This document shows, one piece after another, positions 14,547 through 41,909 of a DNA stretch of 64,000 nt (the first letter of the stretch is position 1; every line of letters begins with the position of its first letter). The translations under genes and the position numbers were made by a program. Source of the stretch: Clostridiales bacterium (GTDB lineage Bacteria; Bacillota; Clostridia; Lachnospirales; Lachnospiraceae); contig JAJPZY010000144.1 of the NCBI GenBank assembly GCA_021204085.1, forward strand, positions 1 through 64,000, in the 5' to 3' direction. The notes beneath the pieces were generated by a model. It searched no databases. It was not told where the DNA came from and saw only the letters and a program-made list of their open reading frames with translations.

Positions 14547-15647
14547 TTATTTGACAACGTTTAACTCGTTCAGATGCGTGCGAACCATCATCGCTATCTT
14601 AAAGAGCATTGCATCTTCAAAAGTGCGTATGTCAAGCCCAAGCTTTTTTTCAATCCGTTCCAGACGGTAAACCAGCGTATTCCTGTGTATATACAGCTGG
14701 CGGGCAGTCTCTGAAATATTCAGATTGTTGTCAAAAAGTTTGTTGATGGTCATCAATGTCTCTTCATCAAGATCCAAATCCATATTTTCCCCAAGCACTT
14801 CCTTTAAAAACATCTCGCAAAGGTCAGCCGGCAGCTTATAGATCAGTCTGCCGATACCCAGCTGCTGATAATAAAAAGCACGCTCGGTTCCATAATATAC
14901 AATACCGATATCCAGGGCTGTGCAGGCATGTCTGTATGCACGCTGCATCTGTTCGAAAGAGTTGACGGGATCTCCGTATCCTACCCATACATTAATCATC
15001 GCTTCCATCTGCATATTATCCACGATCACTCGTGCATATTGCTCATAATTTTCATTTGGAATATCCGAGACGCTTTTGATCAGAACCGTACGGTTTCCGT
15101 CCATCTCAACCATAAAATCCTGATAACTGCTCACAAACAGATTTTTTAATGTTTCAAGAAGTACCGAATCCGCCTCATTTTTATAATAAATCACGTAAAG
15201 CACATATCTCCCGGACTTCAGTTGAAGCTGATGGCATTTCTCTGAAATCTTTTCCGTCGGAATCTCACCATTGATAATCTGACGTAAAACATTAATTCTG
15301 TTTTCCGGCTCTCGCATGGAGAGGAATGTATCCCGCACATGGCACAACGCCATCTTTCCGATCACATAAGACTGATCCGCCTCTGATCCTCTGCTGCACA
15401 ACAGCACATACTCCGTCTCTCCCTGAAGGTCAACGCGAAAATAAATCCATCCCTGCTGAACCTGTGTCTCTGCCAGCGAATGCGCAAACTGCCTGATCGA
15501 TTGCGAAAATCCGGCCGCCTCCTCCGTACCCGCAACAAATTCTCCTTCCACAGAAAAAAGAAGATACTCCCGTTTGGAAGCCTCCTTCATTTCGTTCAAA
15601 ACTCTCCCCAGCTTTTTTTTCGATACCATCTGATCCATAAACAACAA
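14547..15647 (-). CDS. PucR/CdaR-family transcriptional regulator
   Basis: C-terminal LFDNNLNISETARQLYIHRNTLVYRLERIEKKLGLDIRTFEDA helix-turn-helix. Confidence 0.88.
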   Translation of the reverse strand: MLFMDQMVSKKKLGRVLNEMKEASKREYLLFSVEGEFVAGTEEAAGFSQSIRQFAHSLAETQVQQGWIYFRVDLQGETEYVLLCSRGSEADQSYVIGKMALCHVRDTFLSMREPENRINVLRQIINGEIPTEKISEKCHQLQLKSGRYVLYVIYYKNEADSVLLETLKNLFVSSYQDFMVEMDGNRTVLIKSVSDIPNENYEQYARVIVDNMQMEAMINVWVGYGDPVNSFEQMQRAYRHACTALDIGIVYYGTERAFYYQQLGIGRLIYKLPADLCEMFLKEVLGENMDLDLDEETLMTINKLFDNNLNISETARQLYIHRNTLVYRLERIEKKLGLDIRTFEDAMLFKIAMMVRTHLNELNVVK

Positions 15648-15697
15648 ACTCCTCCTGGATATTCCGGCTTTTGCAATATATTATAAGGACTATAACG

Positions 15698-15728
15698 GAA
15701 AAAACTGGGTACGGAGACCGTACCCAGT
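15698..15728 (-). terminator. Intrinsic terminator downstream of msmK-like gene
   Basis: CTGGGTACGG aga CCGTACCCAG; TTTTTT follows on the minus strand. Confidence 0.8.
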
Positions 15729-15745
15729 CTAACAATCAAATGTTT

Positions 15746-16858
15746 TTAGTGGCAAATCGCCTGCTCAGTCTCTTTATCAAAGAGATGACCCTTGTTAACA
15801 TCAAACGCAACCTGTACGTGATCACCATAACGAGCCGGTGTGCTGGCGTCTACTTTGGATGTCATCGTAACACCATTGGATGTAAAGTAAAGCAATACTT
15901 CGGAGCCAAGGAGCTCATATCCGGTAACCTCTGCGGAAACCTGATAATCTTTATTCTGCTCAACGAATGCCGGGAAATCATCCATGTCATCCGGACGAAT
16001 ACCAAAGACAACTGTCTTTCCGTCATATCCGCCGGCCTTCAGAGCCTTTGCCTTGTTCTCCGGCATCACATATGTAACACCATTCGCTGTGATGGTAACC
16101 TTATCTCCGCTGACTTTTACAACAGCATCCATAAAGTTCATCTGAGGAGATCCGATAAATCCGGCAACGAAAAGGTTGTCCGGCTCATCATACAGTTTCT
16201 TCGGAGAATCTACCTGCATGATAACGCCATCCTTCAGAACAACGATTCTGGTTCCCAGTGTCATAGCCTCTGTCTGGTCATGTGTTACATAAATAATGGT
16301 AGCGCCCAGTCTCTGATGCAGTGCGGAGATCTCAGTACGCATCTGAACTCTCAGCTTAGCATCCAGGTTGGACAGCGGCTCATCCATAAGGAATACCTTC
16401 GGCTCACGAACGATAGCACGACCCATCGCTACACGCTGTCTCTGACCACCGGAAAGAGCCTTCGGCTTACGGTCTAACAGTTTCTCCAGATCAAGGATCT
16501 TAGCTGCTGCCATAACTTTCTTATCAATCTCATCCTTCGGCATCTTTCTCAGTTTAAGTGCAAACCCCATGTTGTCAGCAACTGTCATATGCGGATATAA
16601 TGCATAGCTCTGGAAAACCATCGCGATGTCTCTGTCCTTCGGCTCAACATCGTTCATACGCTTTCCGTCAATATAAAAATCACCCTCTGAAATTTCTTCC
16701 AGTCCGGCGATCATACGAAGTGTTGTTGACTTACCACATCCGGAAGGACCTACAAAGATGATAAACTCTTTGTCTGCTACTTCGAGGTTGAAATCTTTTA
16801 CCGCCTCAAATCCATTCGGATATCTTTTGTAGATGTGCTGCAATGATAATTGTGCCAT
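15746..16858 (-). CDS. msmK: Sugar ABC transporter ATP-binding protein (MsmK/UgpC type)
   Basis: [90 protein letters not shown]. Confidence 0.93.
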
Positions 16859-17061
16859 TTCTGTTACCCTCCATATTTTCTTCTTAACAGTTCGATTTCT
16901 ATCATGAGAGTATTTTATCAAATAATTTATAAAATGTCATTAGGAATTTTTACAAAATTACCATCCCATCCTTGGCATTTATGCCATCAGAAAAATTTTT
17001 TTCGGATTTTTTTATGTATTTCGACGGCTCTTTTCGCGAATTTTGGTAAATGTGACGGTTT

Positions 17062-17496
17062 TTACTGTTTTCCGGTACTTCCGAAACCTCCCCGACTGTC
17101 ATTATTTAAAAATTGCACTTCATCAAATACAATTTTCGGCTGATTTTCAAAAATCCGAAATTGACAGATCCGGTCATTTTCATGAATTACCGTATCTCTG
17201 GTGGCGTATACCGGCATACGCCACATATCTTCATCACCGCAGTAGGAACAATCAATAATGCCGCAGCTGTTTGTCTGCAGGATACCGTAATTTTTAAATG
17301 TGGAACTTCTGGGAACCAGGTGCGCCTCATACCCTTTCGGCAGCTCCATGGCGATGCCAAGCGGAATCAGGCGAAATTCACCCGCTTTTAATTCCACGGT
17401 TTCGCTGGCGCGAAGGTCGATCCAGTCGGATTTCCCGTCAATGTACTCCAGGCGTTTTATTTTGTCCGAAAAATAACGGATGCGGATTTTCTGCAT
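17062..17496 (-). CDS. dut: dUTP diphosphatase
   Basis: LVPRSSTFKNYGILQTNSCGIIDCSYCGDEDMW and C-terminal RGGFGSTGKQ. Confidence 0.92.
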   Translation of the reverse strand: MQKIRIRYFSDKIKRLEYIDGKSDWIDLRASETVELKAGEFRLIPLGIAMELPKGYEAHLVPRSSTFKNYGILQTNSCGIIDCSYCGDEDMWRMPVYATRDTVIHENDRICQFRIFENQPKIVFDEVQFLNNDSRGGFGSTGKQ

Positions 17497-17520
17497 GATA
17501 TTTTGCCCTCCTCTTGATGT

Positions 17521-18528
17521 TTACCAGATAAGATCTTCACTCTCTGTCTTTCGTTCCCGCAGCATCAGTTCCTCGACCGCATCTTTCGCCGGCTGCCCCT
17601 CAAACAGCACCCGGTTCACCTGTTTGACGATCGGCATATCCACATGATATTTTTCAGCAAGCGCAATGGCGGCTTTTGCGGAATATACGCCCTCGACTAC
17701 CATTTTTACTTCATCCATCGCCTCCTGCATGGTATAGCCCTGCCCAATCAGCATACCGGCTTTACGATTCCGGCTATGTCGGCTTGCGCAGGTTACGATC
17801 AGATCGCCGATGCCGGAAAGTCCGTTCAGGGTCTCAGCTTTCGCTCCCATTGCGATCGCCAGACGGCTGATTTCGGCGATTCCGCGCGTAATCAGCGCCG
17901 CCTTTGTATTGTCGCCAAAGCCCAGGCCATCCGCCATACCCGCAGCCAATGCAATGACATTTTTCAGGGAACTCCCCAACTCTATGCCCAGCATGTCCGG
18001 GCTGGTGTAGACACGGAAAACTTCATTCATAAAATATGACTGTACCCGTTCCGCTACCGCTTTCGACTTTGCTCCGGCTACTACAGTGGTCGGAAGTTCT
18101 CTTCCCACTTCTTCCGCATGACTTGGACCGGAAAGCACCGCCACCTCAGCCTGCGGAATCTCTTCCTCCACAATATCCGTCTGAATCATCAGCGTACTTT
18201 CCTCAATTCCTTTTGAAACTACGACAATCAGCTGACCTTCACGTACAAAATGAGCCATATTGCGGGCAGTACTTCGAATATAAGGGGACGGCACTGCCAT
18301 GACAACCAGATCCCCGATTTTCGCGGTTTTTTCAATATCCGTTGTGAAATGAACAGAATCCGGGATTTTTACACCCGGAAGCTTGTCTCTGTGCTCCCTT
18401 TCTTCAGAAAGCATCTTTACTTCTTCTTCCAGAATTGACCAGACAGTTACCTCATGTCCGTTATGTGCCAGGACTACAGATAACGCTGTGCCCCAGCTTC
18501 CCGCTCCTATGATACCAACCTGTGCCAT
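17521..18528 (-). CDS. gpsA: NAD(P)H-dependent glycerol-3-phosphate dehydrogenase
   Basis: MAQVGIIGAGSWGTALSVVLAHNGHEVTVW; SSLKNVIALAAGMADGLGFGDNTKAALITRG. Confidence 0.96.
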   Translation of the reverse strand: MAQVGIIGAGSWGTALSVVLAHNGHEVTVWSILEEEVKMLSEEREHRDKLPGVKIPDSVHFTTDIEKTAKIGDLVVMAVPSPYIRSTARNMAHFVREGQLIVVVSKGIEESTLMIQTDIVEEEIPQAEVAVLSGPSHAEEVGRELPTTVVAGAKSKAVAERVQSYFMNEVFRVYTSPDMLGIELGSSLKNVIALAAGMADGLGFGDNTKAALITRGIAEISRLAIAMGAKAETLNGLSGIGDLIVTCASRHSRNRKAGMLIGQGYTMQEAMDEVKMVVEGVYSAKAAIALAEKYHVDMPIVKQVNRVLFEGQPAKDAVEELMLRERKTESEDLIW

Positions 18529-18570
18529 ATCTTCGCCTCGCCTTCAATATATACAGTGATTTTCCTGTGA

Positions 18571-19227
18571 CTATTTCGATTTTTTTCCGGATCCCGGCTG
18601 AAACCTATTTTCCGTCCCGGAAACCAGCCGTTTCAGGTTGCCCCTGTGCTGGAAAAATGCCAGTCCCGTCAATACGCCGGTCACAACATACATTTCCACA
18701 AGAAACTGCGCGCCAACCTTTAAGAACCCTAATTGTCCGAAAACGATTGTCTGGACAAACAATCCGCTTAAGATTGCCAGCGATCCCAGAGACATAAAGC
18801 TGGTGGGAACAACTGCCAGGAAGAAAAGAATCGCACAGATGGGAACCATCCGCCAGTCATTGGCAAAAACGATCCCCATACTGCAGGCAATTCCCTTTCC
18901 GCCCTTAAACTTTGCATAAAACGGATAGTCATGCCCCAACACTGCACCGAATCCGGCATACAATTCCAGAAGCTTGACCGCATCCGGATATGTATTGCGG
19001 TATAAAAGCCAGATGATCACCATGGCAAAAACCGCTTTCAGGCAGTCACCGAAAAAAACGATAATACCGGCCTTCCATCCGAGTACCCGAATAGAATTTG
19101 TCATACCGGTATTGCCGCTGCCCTCTTTTGTCAAATCTGTATGATAAGCTTTTCCAACCAGCTTTCCGGTAGGGAACAGGCCGAAAACATATCCCAGAAC
19201 CAGAGCAATCACACGAGATGTAATCAT
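18571..19227 (-). CDS. plsY: Acyl-phosphate glycerol-3-phosphate acyltransferase PlsY
   Basis: LFPTGKLVGKAYHTDLTKEGSGNTGMTNSIRVLGWKAG; AVLGHDYPFYAKFKGGKGIACSMG. Confidence 0.95.
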   Translation of the reverse strand: MITSRVIALVLGYVFGLFPTGKLVGKAYHTDLTKEGSGNTGMTNSIRVLGWKAGIIVFFGDCLKAVFAMVIIWLLYRNTYPDAVKLLELYAGFGAVLGHDYPFYAKFKGGKGIACSMGIVFANDWRMVPICAILFFLAVVPTSFMSLGSLAILSGLFVQTIVFGQLGFLKVGAQFLVEMYVVTGVLTGLAFFQHRGNLKRLVSGTENRFQPGSGKKSK

Positions 19228-19285
19228 ATTCTTATCTCTCCTATCTCTTATCTCATATCATTTTTTAATTATCCGGAAACGCACC

Positions 19286-19312
19286 GCATTTTCGAGCCCG
19301 ATTCTGAATAAT
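19286..19312. repeat. Solo end of fold-back repeat family 2
   Basis: GCATTTTCGAGCCCGATTCTGAATAATT closely matches one end of the 62942-63081 element (minus strand GCATTTTCGAGCCTGGTTCTGAATAATC). Confidence 0.6.
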
Positions 19313-19365
19313 TACAGTTTTTATAAAATGCACATCAATGATACAAATCCGCCCTGATGTTTCCT

Positions 19366-20688
19366 CTACTCGCTTTTTCTCTCTCTTATGATGAATTTCA
19401 GTGCAGTTCCCTGGAATCCAAACGTCTCCCGAATCCGATTTTCCAGATAACGGGTATAGGAAAAATGCATCAGCGATTTATCATTTACAAAGAGTACAAA
19501 TGTCGGCGGCTTCACCCCTGCCTGTGTCGCGTAATAAATGCGCAGCCGTTTTCCCTTGTCGGATGGCGGCTCATGCATGGCTACAGCTTCCGTGATGATC
19601 TCATTTAAAACGCCAGTTGCAATCCGCATGGCATTATTTGCGATCACCATATCGATCATATCATAAATCTTTGTCAGGCGCTGCCCGGTCTGAGCAGAGA
19701 TAAACATAATCTGAGCATACGGCATAAAACTCAAAACCTCGCGAATCCGATTCGTATGCTGATTCATCGTTTTATCATTCTTCTCCACAGCATCCCACTT
19801 ATTCACCGCAATGATGATGCCCTTTCCCCGCTCATGGGCGATGCCGGCAATCTTCGCATCCTGCTCCGTCACTCCCTCGGTTGCGTCAATCACGAGAATA
19901 ACCGCATCCGCACGCTCAACGGCAGTGACCGCCCGGATGATACTGTACCGCTCGATCTCCTCTTTGATCTTGCTCTTGCGCCGCAAGCCGGCAGTATCAA
20001 TAAAAATATACTCTCTCCCGTAATACTTAATTACCGTATCTATGGCATCACGGGTCGTTCCTGCAATATTCGAGACAATCAAACGGTTTTCACCCAGAAG
20101 TTTATTAATAATGGATGATTTTCCTACATTCGGCTTCCCGACAATCGCCACTTTCGGGCGCTCATCATCCTCCTCATTCTCAGAAGCATCCGGAAAATAG
20201 CTCACTACCTTTTCCAGCATATCGCCGATTCCGAGCCGGCCTGATGCGGAAATCGGCACAGGGTCACCCATGCCAAGATTATAAAACTCATAAACATCTG
20301 CCTCAAACTTCTGGAAACTATCCACCTTGTTCACAACCAGAACAACGGGCTTGTGAGAACGGCGCAGCATATCAGCCACCTTCGCGTCCGCGTCTGACAT
20401 CCCCTGCCGCACATCCACCATAAAAATTATGACGTCCGCCGTCATCATCGCAATCTCTGCCTGCTCCCTCATCTGCGACAGGATAATATCTTTGGAATCC
20501 GGCTCAATTCCGCCGGTATCTATTAATGTAAAAGAATGGTTCAGCCACTCCACATCTGCATATATACGGTCTCTGGTCACGCCCGGCGTGTCCTTAACTA
20601 TAGAGATCCTCTCCCCGGCCAACGCATTAAAAAGCGTAGACTTCCCAACATTCGGGCGGCCAACGACCGCTACAATCGGTTTACTCAT
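19366..20688 (-). CDS. der: Ribosome biogenesis GTPase Der (EngA)
   Basis: Two G domains: [34 protein letters not shown] and [36 protein letters not shown]. Confidence 0.97.
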
Positions 20689-20993
20689 GGTTCACCTCAT
20701 TACTGCTAATTTAAATCCAGTCTCTGTTTTCTTTATAATTACCGTTATCATCCGGCCGCAAAAACCGGAGTTTTCATGAAACATCAGAATTTATATTCAA
20801 AATCTCTGTGACTGATTGTACCGTATGGTTCTGAATTTGTAAAGAAAAATAAAGAATGCCGGCAACACCCCGACTACGGTGAAAAGCGAAAGGAAAATTG
20901 TATATTTTACTATCCGCAAGATTATGGGGCGTCCATAAAGAACGCCCCGATAATTCATACATATTCATCCTGCTGCGTTAAATACGCTGTCTT

Positions 20994-36537: not shown

Positions 36538-36601
36538 ATTCAGAACCCGGTAGATTTGCAGAAAAAAACTATCTGACGAGAACGCGGTACTAGTTCTGAA
36601 T
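36538..36601. repeat. Fold-back repeat family 2, compact copy
   Basis: ATTCAGAAC (36538-36546) / GTTCTGAAT (36593-36601); core GATTTGCAGAAAAAAACTATCTGACGAGAACGCG shared with 62942-63081. Right arm encodes the final I-Q-N of the adjacent CDS. Confidence 0.75.
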
Positions 36602-37525
36602 ATTTGCCACTATTTTATATACGGAAGTATGAGAATACGTCATGGGATCATTATGAGCGAAAAAAATAGTCCCATCCACCGGAGAAAGGATTCGCTCCAG
36701 CACTTCTCCCTCATACGGATCCAGAATTTCCGCCAGCAGTTCACCCTGGCTGACCGCCTGTCCGACGTTCACTTTTCCGTCAAAAATGCCGGACGCATCC
36801 GAGCGGACATTTGCCATTTCCCGGTCAGATACCACCTCAGAAATATATCCGTCATGAGATTTATAATTCAGAATTCCCTGTTTTCCGAGGAAATTCAATA
36901 CATACCGCACAGCCTGCATGGCTGATTCCCGGTCGATGGTGTCGGTACTCGCCGTGTAAACGCTGAATGCCTTGCTCTCCCAGATCTGCCAGTTATAGTT
37001 GAGCGTCGTCGTGTCGTAAGGCCGCACCTCACGGATAACCACATAAGGGAACCCGAATTGTTTCGCCAGTTCCACATCCTCCAGGCCGGTCCGCATCATC
37101 CGGACATGCGGAATAAAATTTCCCGGCATATAAAAACTGGTAAACTGCATGCCATATGTATAATCTTTGATTTCCTCAAAAATTCCCGCTGCGATGCGCT
37201 GCGTCGTCTCGCCGAGATTATATCCGGGAAACATGCGGTTGATATCACTGTTATCAATCGGCCAGAATCGTTTCTGTATGTTCATAGAATACGGATTCAT
37301 GGATGGAATAACTAAAATCTTATATCCGGGGTTTAACTTTCCCTTTTTCTCCAGCTGCTTCAGCTGACGAATGATCTGCGAACAGGTAAACAACTGCTGT
37401 ACCTCGTTGCCCCGGCAGCCGCCTACGATACAGGCTGACTTTTCTCCGCTTCCGAACTCATAGCCGGTCACACGAAAGTCATCCCTATACAGGGATTTTA
37501 TCTCATAAACAGTTTTTTTCGTCAT
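36590..37525 (-). CDS. M14/AstE-AspA-like protein, likely inactive
   Basis: Paralog of 37522-38454; GGCRGNEVQQ and MQFTSFYM replace the HxxE and DIHAS zinc motifs; DINRMFPG retained. Confidence 0.8.
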   Translation of the reverse strand: MTKKTVYEIKSLYRDDFRVTGYEFGSGEKSACIVGGCRGNEVQQLFTCSQIIRQLKQLEKKGKLNPGYKILVIPSMNPYSMNIQKRFWPIDNSDINRMFPGYNLGETTQRIAAGIFEEIKDYTYGMQFTSFYMPGNFIPHVRMMRTGLEDVELAKQFGFPYVVIREVRPYDTTTLNYNWQIWESKAFSVYTASTDTIDRESAMQAVRYVLNFLGKQGILNYKSHDGYISEVVSDREMANVRSDASGIFDGKVNVGQAVSQGELLAEILDPYEGEVLERILSPVDGTIFFAHNDPMTYSHTSVYKIVANIQN

Positions 37526-38454
37526 AGCACATCCTCCAGAATTCGCGCAAGCAGAGACCCCTCATCTACTACCGGATACTCCCGGATGGTAAACAGCAGC
37601 CCATCCGTCGGTGAAGTAACGTGATCCAGTTCCTCGCCGGTCATCGGATTTACAATGCTTCCGATAAAATCACCCTGTTTCACCCGGTCGCCATGCATCG
37701 CATTTTTGATAAAAATCCCGCTGTGCGGCGCGTTTAAGAAACTGACCTTTCCGTCCTCAGAGATAATGGGATCTGTCGTAACCGCGATATCCTCCTGCCA
37801 GATGCCCAGATCATGCATCAGATGAAAAATTCCGTCTGTCAGCCGTTTTCCGTATTCTTTTGTAATCCGCATACCTACGCCCATCTCCACAACAATGGTT
37901 GCCACGCCTCTCGCGTTCATGGTATGCGCCAGCGTAGACTCCAGAACAGTGCTCGCTGCGTGCACCCAGATAAAATCCAGATTCAGCTTTTTCGCAAGAG
38001 GCACAAGCTTCTCACTGGTATTGACATTGATTCGCGCCTGCGGCATCTCCGTCAGGAAAATATTGCTGGCGTGGATGTCAATGCACACATCCGCCCCATC
38101 CAGATCATTACAGATTTCCGATGCCACATACTCTGTCATACTTCCATCCCGGTTTCCCGGAAACAGGCGGTTCATATCCAGATCAAACGCCGGAATTCCC
38201 CGGGTCAAAGAATCAATTCCCAGCGGATTCATCGCCGGGTAGATATCTACCGTACCGGTCAGGAGCTCTTTTCTTTCCCGAATCCTTCGCAGAACCTCAT
38301 AGCAGACATACTGCCCTTCCAGTTCATCTCCGTGCGTCCCCGTTACAATACAGATCCGCTTGCCGCAGTCCGCCCCGTCCGGGGTCACCCGCATTTTTCT
38401 TATATTTAAAACTTCGTCCACGGGCAGGCCCACGGACGCTACGTTCTTAATCAT
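37522..38454 (-). CDS. M14/succinylglutamate desuccinylase-aspartoacylase family metallohydrolase
   Basis: IVTGTHGDELEGQYVC (HxxE), DMNRLFPGNRDG, DVCIDIHASN, TIVVEMGVGM. Confidence 0.9.
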   Translation of the reverse strand: MIKNVASVGLPVDEVLNIRKMRVTPDGADCGKRICIVTGTHGDELEGQYVCYEVLRRIRERKELLTGTVDIYPAMNPLGIDSLTRGIPAFDLDMNRLFPGNRDGSMTEYVASEICNDLDGADVCIDIHASNIFLTEMPQARINVNTSEKLVPLAKKLNLDFIWVHAASTVLESTLAHTMNARGVATIVVEMGVGMRITKEYGKRLTDGIFHLMHDLGIWQEDIAVTTDPIISEDGKVSFLNAPHSGIFIKNAMHGDRVKQGDFIGSIVNPMTGEELDHVTSPTDGLLFTIREYPVVDEGSLLARILEDVL

Positions 38455-38574
38455 ATTCTGTAATGCTATCCTTTCTACCTTTTTACTGCATGTGTTTGCC
38501 GAAGATTACCTTTCACATTCGACAGACACATTTTTTCAAGCCATTCAGACTATATTTGTTTTTTCTGAGATTTC

Positions 38575-38790
38575 GTCCGTATGTTTTCGTATCCAATACG
38601 GACTGATTTTATCCTTCCTGCAATCTCGTCCGTATACTTTCATATCCCATACGGACTAAATCCAACAATTCCTTCAATTTCGTCCGTATCTATTCTTACC
38701 CCTACGGACAAGTTCACATACTATACCACATTGATCCGTATGACGCAACATGACATACGGACTGTTTTTATATAACTTGTCTTTTGTCCG
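38575..38790. repeat. Array of four GTCCGTAT-n12/13-ATACGGAC dyads plus a fifth half-site, 52-54 bp period
   Basis: Left arms start at 38575, 38628, 38682, 38734, 38786; right arms at 38596, 38649, 38702, 38755. Confidence 0.92.
38720..38748 (-). promoter_or_regulatory. Candidate promoter overlapping the fourth dyad
   Basis: Minus strand TTGCGT-17 nt-TATAGT, directed toward 38454. Confidence 0.4.
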
Positions 38791-38857
38791 CACAACGTCT
38801 CCATTTATATAGAAGATTTTTTATATGCTCCAATGTTTGCCATGTTTCCTTTACCAT

Positions 38858-39646
38858 TCACCCCGTCTCGTGATCGCTCACGATGACGGACACACTCTGC
38901 CGCTGCATCCCGCCGCCGATCATCATACCCTTGTTCATCTGGCAGTCCGCAGCGTCTCTGCCGCAGGAAATGAAGATATACTGGTCGTCCGCCTCACGGC
39001 CGTTTGTCGGATCGACACCATACCAGATGCCGTCCTCGCAGACTTCCACCCATGCATGGCTTGCGCCCTCGCCGATCATCATACCTACCACATATCGGGC
39101 AGGTATGTGCTCCAGACGCAAAAGCGCCAGCAGAATATGCGCATAATCCTGGCAGACGCCATGCCGGGAAGACAAAGCTTCCTCCGCCTTTGTAGAAATG
39201 CCGGTGCTGCCCGGCAAATATACCATATCCCGATATAAAAGATTCATATAGTACACCGCTGCCTCCCGCGCAGACATACCGAATACCGGGTGACTGCGCC
39301 AGTACGCCCGGATGGCATCTCCCGCTTTCGTATAGTAAGAAGAATAACGGTATTTTCCCAGTCCTTCCGTCTTTGCCGGACGTCCTGCAGACAGCCCGGT
39401 TCTGGCCAGTCCCTGGACGGTTATCCGAAAAAGACGGTGCGGCTGCTCCACAATTCCGCATAGCGTCTGATTTCCGAAAGAATCAACGCTCGTGAAATTC
39501 TGACTCTCCGGATCCAGAAAAATCCGGATTCCGTCAATCTCCTGCACCGCATCGCTTTTCGGGAAACATTTCAGGGTGTAATTGTGCTTCATTGCCGGTT
39601 CAGAGAACATCAGACTCATCTGATAAATAAAATGCAGTTCTCTCAC
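38858..39646 (-). CDS. Transglutaminase-like domain protein
   Basis: SSRHGVCQDYAHILLALLRLEHIPARYVVGMM ... SHAWVEVCEDGIWYGVDPTNG (Cys-His-Asp triad). Confidence 0.93.
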   Translation of the reverse strand: MRELHFIYQMSLMFSEPAMKHNYTLKCFPKSDAVQEIDGIRIFLDPESQNFTSVDSFGNQTLCGIVEQPHRLFRITVQGLARTGLSAGRPAKTEGLGKYRYSSYYTKAGDAIRAYWRSHPVFGMSAREAAVYYMNLLYRDMVYLPGSTGISTKAEEALSSRHGVCQDYAHILLALLRLEHIPARYVVGMMIGEGASHAWVEVCEDGIWYGVDPTNGREADDQYIFISCGRDAADCQMNKGMMIGGGMQRQSVSVIVSDHETG

Positions 39647-39683
39647 AAAATTTCCCCCTTAGTTCGTTCTATATCTTCACGTT

Positions 39684-40355
39684 TTATACGGACATGATTA
39701 TAAGATTTTCAATCAGATTCACAATCCGGTAGTAATCTATCTGTTCCGCTGACGCGAGTTCCTCAATCTCGTCCAGATATTCCTTATGATAGCGCATACC
39801 GCTCTGCTCCACTCTTGGTCTTAAGCGTCCCAGTTCGCGTAGAATCTCTGCGCCATCCATACCCAAACGCGCATAGAGATCAATCCGCTCAATCCGCTTT
39901 CCGGCTTTCAGAACATTCCGAACCTGCGGATTGTCTACTTTGTCATCCATAATCCCCCAGAATGCCATGATGTGATCAATGACTTCCTGCAGCGGCAGTA
40001 GCGGCGCCTCGCTGATCTTTGCCTCCTGTATATCATAAATCGCCATCTGTATATACGCCAACGCCTCACTGCCCATGATTTCACGCATGATAATGCTGTT
40101 ATCATAAGCACGGGTAAGATTGCTGATGATGGAGTTCGGATCCTCCGTATCAAAAGGATATCTCTCACGGAATGAATCGGCGGAACCGTAGATATCCGGG
40201 ATATCCAGTTTCTCATAAAAGATATGATAGTCCCCCATCAGGTCAATCATGGAATCATAACTCTCAAAATACAGGCAGAGCGTCGTATAAACCCGCTCCG
40301 TATAACGCCCCAGCCAGAATAAATTATCAATATGCTCTAATGAGATAGTACCCAT
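39684..40355 (-). CDS. Alpha-E domain protein
   Basis: MGTISLEHIDNLFWLGRYTERVYTTLCLYFESYDSMID; adjacent to CP-ATP-grasp and transglutaminase. Confidence 0.88.
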   Translation of the reverse strand: MGTISLEHIDNLFWLGRYTERVYTTLCLYFESYDSMIDLMGDYHIFYEKLDIPDIYGSADSFRERYPFDTEDPNSIISNLTRAYDNSIIMREIMGSEALAYIQMAIYDIQEAKISEAPLLPLQEVIDHIMAFWGIMDDKVDNPQVRNVLKAGKRIERIDLYARLGMDGAEILRELGRLRPRVEQSGMRYHKEYLDEIEELASAEQIDYYRIVNLIENLIIMSV

Positions 40356-41662
40356 GTGTCTTTAAATCCTCCTCCCTGTGATGAATTGACAATAAACGAA
40401 TCCGGATTCCGGGTAAACCGCGTCAGACCGCTCTTCCAGACCATCGGCTCATCCGCCATCAGGACAAACGCCCGCAGATCCGCTTTCCGCTGCACGATCT
40501 TATCCCCGTCCATGATATCCATATCTTCGAAATCAATCACTTCCTGCGCAATAAACCGCCGCGGCTCCGCTTTCAGCAGGGAAATAAAATCCGCCTTCTG
40601 CTGCTTTGTCATCGTGTTGCCGAAGACGACGCCGTAGCCGCCGGCTTCCGCCACATCCTTTAACACCAGATCATCAAAATGCTCCAGAACATAGGCCATA
40701 TCCTCCTCATAGAACGGCAGATAGGTCGGCGCATTGTTCAGAATCGGCTCCTCGCCCAGATAATACTTTATCATCTTCGGGACAAAGTAATAAATACCCT
40801 TATCATCCGCCACACCGTTGCCCGGCACATTCATAAGTGCCACATTGCCCTTGCGGAACACATCATAAATGTGCGGCACGCCAATCAATGATTCCGGCTT
40901 AAAGTTCATCGGATCCAGATAATCGTCGGAAATTCTGCGGTAAACCGCGCCGACACGCTCTTTTTTCCCGGAATAATCCTTAAAGTAAAGGACATCATCC
41001 TCCACCACGAGATCCTGGCCGATCGCCAGCGTCGACCCGGTTTGCTCCGCCAGATAAGAATGCTCAAAATAAGCGAAATTGAACCGTCCCGGCGTCAGGA
41101 TTACATTCAGACCGCCGGTATTGACATAGTCCATCGTCTTTTTCAGCAGGTCCGCATAGTTACGGTTATCCTCAATTTTCACCTCACGGAATGTCTTCGG
41201 AGAGCTCATCCGGCAAAGCTGTCTGGCAATCATCGGGTAAGATGCACCGGAGGGCACCCGCAGGTTATCCTCCAGTATGTACCACTCCTTATCCTTGCCA
41301 CGCACCAGATCGATACCGGAAATATGGGAAGAAACATCGCGCACCGGACATACGCCTTCGCATTCCGCCATATAACCGCTGGAAGCAAAAATAAAGTCCT
41401 CAGGAACCACGCCGTCTTTTACAATCTTCTTCTCCCCGTAAATATCTTTCAAAAATAAGTTCAGCGCCTTCACCCGCTGCTTTAACCCCCGCTCCAGATA
41501 ATCAAACTCATCCGCGCCGATCACCCGCGGAATCGCGTCAAACGGAAACAGCTGCTCGTGAAAAACATTATTTTTGTAAATACCGAATTTCACGCCGTAG
41601 CGTGCCAGCAGCCGATTGACCTTATCTGTATTCTGGAACAGATCCATGTCATAAAACTCCAT
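40337..41662 (-). CDS. Circularly permuted ATP-grasp type protein
   Basis: RGKDKEWYILEDNLRVPSGASYPMIARQLCR; LILTPGRFN-type region (VILTPGRFNFAYFEHSYLAEQTG); DLVLKDVAEAGGYGVVFG. Confidence 0.92.
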   Translation of the reverse strand: MEFYDMDLFQNTDKVNRLLARYGVKFGIYKNNVFHEQLFPFDAIPRVIGADEFDYLERGLKQRVKALNLFLKDIYGEKKIVKDGVVPEDFIFASSGYMAECEGVCPVRDVSSHISGIDLVRGKDKEWYILEDNLRVPSGASYPMIARQLCRMSSPKTFREVKIEDNRNYADLLKKTMDYVNTGGLNVILTPGRFNFAYFEHSYLAEQTGSTLAIGQDLVVEDDVLYFKDYSGKKERVGAVYRRISDDYLDPMNFKPESLIGVPHIYDVFRKGNVALMNVPGNGVADDKGIYYFVPKMIKYYLGEEPILNNAPTYLPFYEEDMAYVLEHFDDLVLKDVAEAGGYGVVFGNTMTKQQKADFISLLKAEPRRFIAQEVIDFEDMDIMDGDKIVQRKADLRAFVLMADEPMVWKSGLTRFTRNPDSFIVNSSQGGGFKDTWVLSH

Positions 41663-41791
41663 ATCTGGTCTCCTTTCTGATTTCCCCTAGTCTCCCTGTT
41701 TTCATGTGATTTTACGAACTCATGCCCTGAAATCCAAATCCGATTCAGATTCTGTATCGGATTTCACTTCTCAGGCACCGCCGAAACACGG

Positions 41792-41826
41792 AAAAAAGGG
41801 CGCTCTGCCGTCAAGCAGAACGCCCT
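41792..41826 (-). terminator. Intrinsic terminator downstream of ilvA
   Basis: Minus strand GGGCGTTCTGC ttgacg GCAGAGCGCCC TTTTTT. Confidence 0.85.
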
Positions 41827-41909
41827 CGTTCTTCACGTACTTATTAATTAATTATACAGGGTTGCCAAAGTTTGTCAACTAAATTTCCTCGAAATTCTCT
41901 TTTACAACG

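Follow-up and report, generated by a model that had tools for sequence, protein, structure and literature searches.

The closest described relative of the locus reported here is the Anbu operon, which shares with it a trio of genes for a circularly permuted ATP-grasp protein (CP-ATP-grasp), an alpha-E protein and a transglutaminase-like protein. According to later accounts of the original study, this trio is predicted to tag proteins with a peptide or an amino acid (Iyer 2009, cited in PMC6376114 and PMC5666114). In Burkholderia the trio belongs to the NtrC/sigma54 nitrogen-limitation regulon (PMC5491218), and Anbu is induced by nitrogen starvation (PMC6376114). Co-expression of the Anbu-operon proteins of Yersinia bercovieri, a system without M14 proteins, yielded no detectable complex (PMC6376114). 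Anbu, the peptidase proposed for the trio, showed no activity in reported assays. The trio is widespread, and the 2009 prediction was that it synthesizes or attaches peptides; its product is not reported in the literature covered. A second point of reference is CphZ, an AstE-like hydrolase that finishes the breakdown of the nitrogen-storage polymer cyanophycin (PMC10206079).

Positions 36590-41662 of the window, the whole 64,000-nucleotide stretch of DNA that was analysed, carry five genes, all on the minus strand. The ORF list and the Pfam matches, which are above cut-off for all five proteins, bear out the placement and naming given in the preliminary description. Gene 1 (40337-41662) encodes a CP-ATP-grasp ligase of 441 amino acids (CP_ATPgrasp_2, 4e-134), whose match in the PDB is 3n6x, a putative glutathionylspermidine synthase (8.5e-110). 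It overlaps by 19 nt with gene 2 (39684-40355), coding for an alpha-E helical protein of 223 amino acids (Alpha-E, 1.2e-18). The predicted structure of this protein is confident and all-helical, and a fold search with it gave no match at E ≤ 0.001; residues W14, G16-R17-Y18, R21, E156 and R163 are invariant among 43 relatives. Gene 3 (38858-39646) encodes a transglutaminase-like protein of 262 amino acids (Transglut_core, 6.5e-17, and Bact_transglu_N) with a Cys165-His197-Asp212 site, whose three residues each show at least 95% conservation across 60 sequences. The last two genes, overlapping by 4 nt, encode the M14-like proteins: M14b (gene 4, 37522-38454, 310 amino acids; AstE_AspA_cat, 7e-24), an AstE/AspA-family hydrolase, and M14a (gene 5, 36590-37525, 311 amino acids; AstE_AspA_cat, 1.8e-11), a pseudoenzyme of the same family. 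The locus is flanked by an aquaporin-like ORF on one side and a threonine dehydratase-like ORF on the other. An Rfam search of the locus returned no match up to E = 1.

The locus thus has the CP-ATP-grasp, alpha-E and transglutaminase-like genes adjacent and in the order of the Anbu operon, with the ATP-grasp and transglutaminase domains intact. It differs in its shorter alpha-E protein, in which the Pfam match covers positions 7-165 of the 294 in the model, and in carrying a pair of AstE/AspA proteins, one of them dead, instead of Anbu. No Anbu gene was found among the five ORFs or the listed flanking ORFs.

M14b shares the fold of the AstE/AspA deacylase family (PF24827, 84.8 bits against a cut-off of 25), which includes DoeB/EutE, aspartoacylase and Mlr6093. 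It retains the two zinc histidines, the zinc glutamate and the catalytic glutamate (H41, E44, H128 and E190); E44, H128 and E190 are present in all 68 relatives and H41 in 65 of them. The scores against the DoeB, AstE and AspA equivalogs are far below the curated cut-offs (for DoeB, 55.9 against 402.7 bits), and the substrate may therefore differ from those of these equivalogs. M14a, on the other hand, lacks this site: both zinc histidines and the catalytic glutamate are replaced (R38, T129 and Y190), with E41 present. The substitutions are common to relatives across the lineage; two of the positions as a rule hold Arg and Tyr, and position 129 is mostly A or T. The M14a model (pLDDT 94) nevertheless matches the folds of 3na6, DoeB and CphZ. 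As the site is lost and the fold is kept, M14a can be regarded as a pseudoenzyme of the AstE/AspA family and, judged from its sequence, is a catalytically dead paralogue of M14b. The 'deacylase pair' of the preliminary description does not stand as such, the full site being kept in M14b and lost lineage-wide in M14a. The two genes are adjacent nearly everywhere in the genomes surveyed, and the pair provides a clear example of an enzyme kept together with a dead paralogue.

Among the fold neighbours with established chemistry, DoeB and CphZ, the latter offers a parallel: an AstE/AspA-like hydrolase and an ATP-dependent amide ligase work side by side in nitrogen storage. However, the ligase of that system belongs to the CphA family, and the relation is one of family and fold only. 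We know of no pseudoenzyme partner of CphZ.

That the M14 pair is linked to the trio had previously been proposed from proximity, and the linkage proved to be conserved between genera, between families and in three phyla. In a survey of 150 genomes of the family, with full-length CP-ATP-grasp as the marker of the trio, the pair was present in 16 of 16 genomes with the marker and in 17 of the 134 others (Fisher 9e-13, a value inflated by shared ancestry). In 14 of the 16 it lies on the contig of the CP-ATP-grasp gene, in the order CP, alphaE, TG, M14b, M14a. Class-wide, 7 of 7 trio genomes have the pair compared to 3 of 284 others, numbers that are likewise inflated by shared ancestry. Within the family, among congeners and in further families of the Clostridia the gene order is the same. 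Pair and ligase occur together in all eight Campylobacterota genomes with M14b; four of these loci show the full order, and in the other four the transglutaminase gene has moved or was not found. One genome of the Pseudomonadota has a locus with all five genes in this order, at 23-49% identity. Wherever the contig reaches, the pair follows the intact trio of the subfamily, and seen from the trio the two are not apart in most relatives. In G124 a deletion has brought the CP-ATP-grasp gene directly next to M14a. That the five genes form one unit across three bacterial phyla holds up well. The literature searched, with the 2009 primary paper lying outside the search, makes no mention of an M14 pair beside the trio.

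The operon is preceded by a promoter followed by a conserved putative attenuator leader, supported by covariation and new in this analysis. The promoter (41851-41878, minus strand), recognized by sequence and conservation, reads TTGACA-N16-TATAAT and agrees with the consensus at 12 of 12 positions. Perfect -35 and -10 hexamers lie upstream of the CP-ATP-grasp gene in every congener examined, and TTGAC-type promoters are found likewise in many further genera. Between promoter and gene 1, on the same strand, lies an intrinsic terminator (41790-41827; stem-loop at 41796-41827 followed by a T run), in which 8 of 13 stem pairs show changes on both sides in an alignment of 33 leaders. In the same alignment a mini-hairpin, GAAC-GAGGGC-GTTC (41818-41831, minus strand; 4 bp and a 6-nt loop), is paired in 98.5% of the cells, a level reached in none of 500 shuffles and compared with at most 61% in slid controls, and three of its four pairs have changes on both sides. 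It occurs once in 428 kb sampled of its own genome, and elsewhere in that genome the leader sequence pattern gave nothing above control. Both folds are supported by covariation and are mutually exclusive, and the mini-hairpin is a candidate antiterminator competing with the terminator.

ANTAR antitermination sites resemble the leader in having a small hairpin that overlaps an intrinsic terminator at the terminator's base, with a 6-nt loop and a G at loop position 4 (40 of 40 leaders); a single ANTAR gene is present in the genome, immediately after glnA. However, loop position 1 is A in 28 of 40 leaders and G in 12, and the first hairpin (P1) of such sites was not found in the leader. An A1/G4 hairpin upstream of the mini-hairpin was seen in 9 of 40 leaders (22%, compared to 10% in shuffles), mostly at an unsuitable distance. 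Because P1 was not found, the leader is not classed as an ANTAR target RNA.

The reading we favour, with a probability of roughly 50%, is that the five genes constitute one nitrogen-linked pathway that makes and cuts an amide or isopeptide product. CP-ATP-grasp and its partner alpha-E would form the amide or isopeptide bond with ATP, and the transglutaminase-like protein may transfer or process the product by means of its Cys-His-Asp site. M14b, held together with the dead M14a in a heteromeric complex, would hydrolyse this bond in the product or in a breakdown intermediate and return the building blocks, much as CphZ completes the degradation of cyanophycin. Promoter and conditional terminator would switch the operon, probably by nitrogen supply. 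We infer the ligase activity, the complex, the substrate, the direction and the nitrogen signal; the single synthesis and trimming pathway of the preliminary description is plausible. Counted in favour of this pathway were the linkage, the gene order, the catalytic columns, the CphZ and DoeB folds, the Burkholderia regulon, the Anbu induction and the leader; counted against it were the negative complex result in Y. bercovieri, the genomes with the pair and no trio, and the missing first ANTAR hairpin. More tentatively, the locus could represent a new branch in which an obligate M14 enzyme/pseudoenzyme complex replaces Anbu and recycles a nitrogen-rich amide metabolite, controlled by a single-hairpin attenuator under nitrogen status. 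As this branch is always accompanied by an AstE/AspA hydrolase, the product is narrowed to something that such an enzyme can cut. A trio that looks able to form or rearrange amide bonds, together with a pair from a bond-cutting family, ties the predicted peptide-making system to testable chemistry, and the locus yields five defined genes for expression as well as a regulatory switch that can be followed.

Protein tagging and untagging, with CP-ATP-grasp and transglutaminase attaching a short peptide or amino acid and M14b/M14a removing it in the place of Anbu, would agree with the function predicted for this trio in the literature (PMC6376114 and PMC5666114, citing Iyer 2009) and with the operon role of Anbu being occupied here by a hydrolase. 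In one Campylobacterota locus, moreover, the operon adjoins a fusion of CP-ATP-grasp with alphaE and a larger protein that contains a transglutaminase. AstE/AspA enzymes of known chemistry (DoeB, AspA, CphZ) act, however, on small molecules, and the compact operon is without a tag gene, which makes tagging rather unlikely. Distinctly unlikely, too, is that M14a is a new enzyme and the pair performs two reactions: R38, E41, W88, D94, Y190 and the NYNWQ motif, strongly conserved across classes, might form another active site, but the family site no longer has a set of metal ligands, and this conservation fits substrate binding or an interface equally well.

A cluster for a ribosomal or other peptide natural product, in which the five genes would supply the tailoring and leader-removal enzymes, is very improbable. 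ATP-grasp, transglutaminase-like and peptidase genes do occur in such clusters, and the transglutaminase has a weak lasso B2-like match, but in most relatives the genes of the operon are packed too closely to leave room for a precursor peptide gene, and the operon shows no sign of a precursor, exporter or immunity gene; its long-range conservation is also unlike that of such clusters. That trio and pair are independent units, brought together in this lineage by luck, is largely refuted and hardly credible. It could draw on the 17 family genomes with the pair and no trio, many with the pair adjoining purL, from which it follows that the pair is able to act alone. Against it, the linkage holds in three phyla and survives rearrangement of the transglutaminase gene, the trio without the pair occurs only as decayed remnants (G019) or at a distant locus (L185), and on the M14b tree the trio linkage requires 4 changes compared to 16.7 with shuffled labels.

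Between the transglutaminase and M14b genes lies a dyad array (38575-38762, in steps of ~53 bp), with units GTCCGTAT-N13-ATACGGAC near 38575, 38628 and 38734 and a 28-nt variant at 38682. The phased array noticed earlier is real, the window containing three strict matches compared to 0.11 expected by chance, but a role as part of the system did not hold. The whole genome has 70 matches per strand against 12 in the control, so that the unit is a dispersed repeat of intergenic DNA and not locus-specific; it is judged to be no functional part of the operon. A function as operon regulator is ruled out by this dispersal together with the absence of the array from the corresponding gap in close relatives. 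That gap measures 17 bp, and the array is a dispersed repeat that has expanded it.

All five open reading frames lie on the minus strand where the preliminary description had placed them, with the expected domains above the Pfam cut-offs: a circularly permuted ATP-grasp protein (CP, 40337-41662), an alpha-E protein (39684-40355) and a transglutaminase-like protein (TG, 38858-39646), together the trio, followed by the AstE/AspA-family pair M14b (37522-38454) and M14a (36590-37525). There is a 19-nt overlap between CP and alpha-E and a 4-nt one between M14b and M14a. The trio and the prediction made for it are already known; no M14 partner of the trio was named in the searched passages of papers on Anbu, a proteasome-like protein of other trio operons. 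CP matches PDB 3n6x along its length and most of its residues are kept across relatives, while TG retains Cys165, His197 and Asp212. The predicted structure of alpha-E is helical and confident; a fold search yielded no PDB relative at E<=0.001. The source assembly is fragmented (2.93 Mb, 151 contigs); of the named genomes, Lachnospiraceae/Clostridiales MAGs are closest to it. Some genera carry polar amino-acid type ABC transporter genes next to the operon (L081, L083, L087, L094; Pfam check on L094).

Linkage of the pair to the trio had been proposed from proximity. A neighbourhood survey was run, and separation in most relatives, the outcome named beforehand as speaking against linkage, was not seen. 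In one set of 150 family genomes, searched for M14b, CP and M14a each, full-length CP was found in 16, all 16 of which carry M14b, versus 17 of the 134 genomes lacking a full-length CP (Fisher 9e-13, inflated, as are all Fisher values for this linkage, by genome relatedness). The five genes stand on one contig and in one order in 14/16. The order also fits in G076, where TG is broken over two contig ends, residues 126-258 lying on one and 1-150 on the other, and in G114, where a contig end splits the operon; in a further genome, G129, alphaE-TG-M14b-M14a begins at the very contig start. Decayed loci agree with the linkage: a CP fragment runs directly into an M14a fragment in G124, CP is broken with the other operon genes in place in G037, and CP and TG pieces alone remain in G019. 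CP gene fragments in genomes lacking the full operon (L054, L055, L056, L095, L096) are probably remnants.

Class-wide, CP was found in 7/291 genomes, and M14b in 7/7 of these vs 3/284 without CP; the operon lies on one contig in 6/7 and is split at a contig end in G421. In a set of 53 CP loci from named genomes, the pair stands behind the trio in every locus of this subfamily with sufficient contig reach. A Sulfurospirillaceae MAG (L179) has CP-alphaE-M14b-M14a with TG on the opposite strand. M14b occurs in 8 of 150 genomes of its class, each time beside CP and alpha-E; four of these Campylobacterota loci have TG in its Clostridia position, between alphaE and M14b, and in the other four it is moved or not found. 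M14b was also found in 1/349 genomes drawn around a Sphingomonadaceae genome; the Pseudomonadota locus has the order CP-alphaE-TG-M14b-M14a at 23-49% identity. Linkage kept through rearrangement and across phyla is a stronger argument than the Fisher values. On the M14b tree, trio linkage takes 4 changes (16.7 with shuffled labels) and most unlinked pairs are nested inside linked pairs, which fits trio loss. Adjoining the five-gene set of L179, at 14875-20733, lies another set of genes of the predicted system. It encodes an 829-aa fusion of CP-ATP-grasp and alphaE, and a protein of 1121 aa whose N-terminal part is transglutaminase-like and whose long C-terminal part is a putative CP glutamine-synthetase-like ligase.

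Since pairs exist without the trio, the pair can act apart from it. Such pairs often have purL directly behind (L058, L060-L065, L070, L072, L073; about ten genera), identified by Pfam on L058 (GATase_5, AIRS_C, FGAR-AT_linker) and via sequence clustering for the other members. The earlier reading of a deacylase pair may hold for M14b, whose site columns are conserved (H41 65/68, E44, H128 and E190 68/68), but is not supported for M14a, where the equivalent columns in 67 sequences hold R in 60, E in 61, A or T in 55 and Y in 60. Shared by relatives whether or not their pair is linked to the trio, these substitutions mark M14a as a conserved pseudoenzyme. In L179 M14a, read by eye, the substitutions differ and the histidines are likewise lost. 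The AlphaFold model of M14a is confident (pLDDT 94) and matches AstE/AspA structures, DoeB and CphZ. Obligate adjacency and gene overlap suggest an M14b/M14a heteromer. M14b did not reach the NCBIfam cut-offs for the DoeB, AstE or AspA equivalogs.

The trio belongs to the NtrC/sigma54 regulon of Burkholderia under nitrogen limitation (PMC5491218), and marine metagenomes show it in association with urea genes (PMC3597751); a further study links Anbu to nitrogen starvation (PMC6376114). In CphZ-type enzymes an AstE-like protein carries out the last step in degrading a nitrogen store that was built with ATP (PMC10206079). We infer substrate, direction of reaction and signal of the operon: together, the nitrogen literature and the CphZ-type enzymes favour a product that would be an amide or isopeptide, made and recycled with nitrogen supply.

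The dyad array between TG and M14b (38575-38762), previously counted with the system, is judged a passenger. Its unit has 70 matches per strand genome-wide vs 12 in a reversed control, and arrays of GTCCGTAT-N13-ATACGGAC in 53-bp steps also occur on source-genome contigs C2, C3, C7, C11, C17, C60, C93, C101, C105, C106, C132 and C133. In the sampled contigs they reach eight units and are mostly intergenic, two falling inside small, possibly spurious ORFs; spacers are often conserved inside one array. The gap, 403 bp in the window, measures 17 bp in the congeners G164 and G160, about 35 bp in G158, about 109 bp in G156, and 620-670 bp in G162 and G159, with arrays and another inverted-repeat element. 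In three congeners (L122, L123, L124) the gap holds an inverted-repeat element of about 200 bp with ends like GGAAAAATTCGGCG...CGCCGAATTTTTC; this MITE-like element points to the gap as a possible hot spot for insertion. The strong RNA folding of the gap (z -4.6) is expected for an array of dyads.

A perfect promoter (41878-41851, minus strand) is followed after about 20 nt by an intrinsic terminator (41790-41827) and then the CP start, an arrangement present in all congeners examined; 41 distinct CP leaders contained a hairpin with T run. The terminator 5' base can alternatively pair with the preceding four bases, NNNC-[A/G]AAGGC-GNNN, as a mini-hairpin (41818-41831). In alignments of 33 leaders, which were chosen for having the hairpin and trimmed to the motif so that counts are biased towards it, the terminator covaries in 8/13 pairs, and in the mini-hairpin pairing extends to 98.5% of cells (a level matched by no shuffle; <=61% when slid), with both-side changes in 3/4 pairs. 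A rougher test of the mini-hairpin (15 distinct arm combinations, 40 leaders) pointed the same way, 42/5000 shuffles being as high. Covariation of both structures supports a pair of folds, each excluding the other, and hence an attenuator. In 428 kb sampled from the source genome, the structural pattern has a single occurrence.

The mini-hairpin looks like the second of the two ANTAR-site hairpins (PMC3369931), and the source genome has one ANTAR gene, directly behind glnA; the leader was not assigned as an ANTAR site because the obligatory first hairpin is missing. Upstream of glnA in L229 (4294-4436), the long complementary segments AGGGGATTCTTCAGGGCATCCC and ATGCCCTGAAGCATCCCC are possibly a structured leader.
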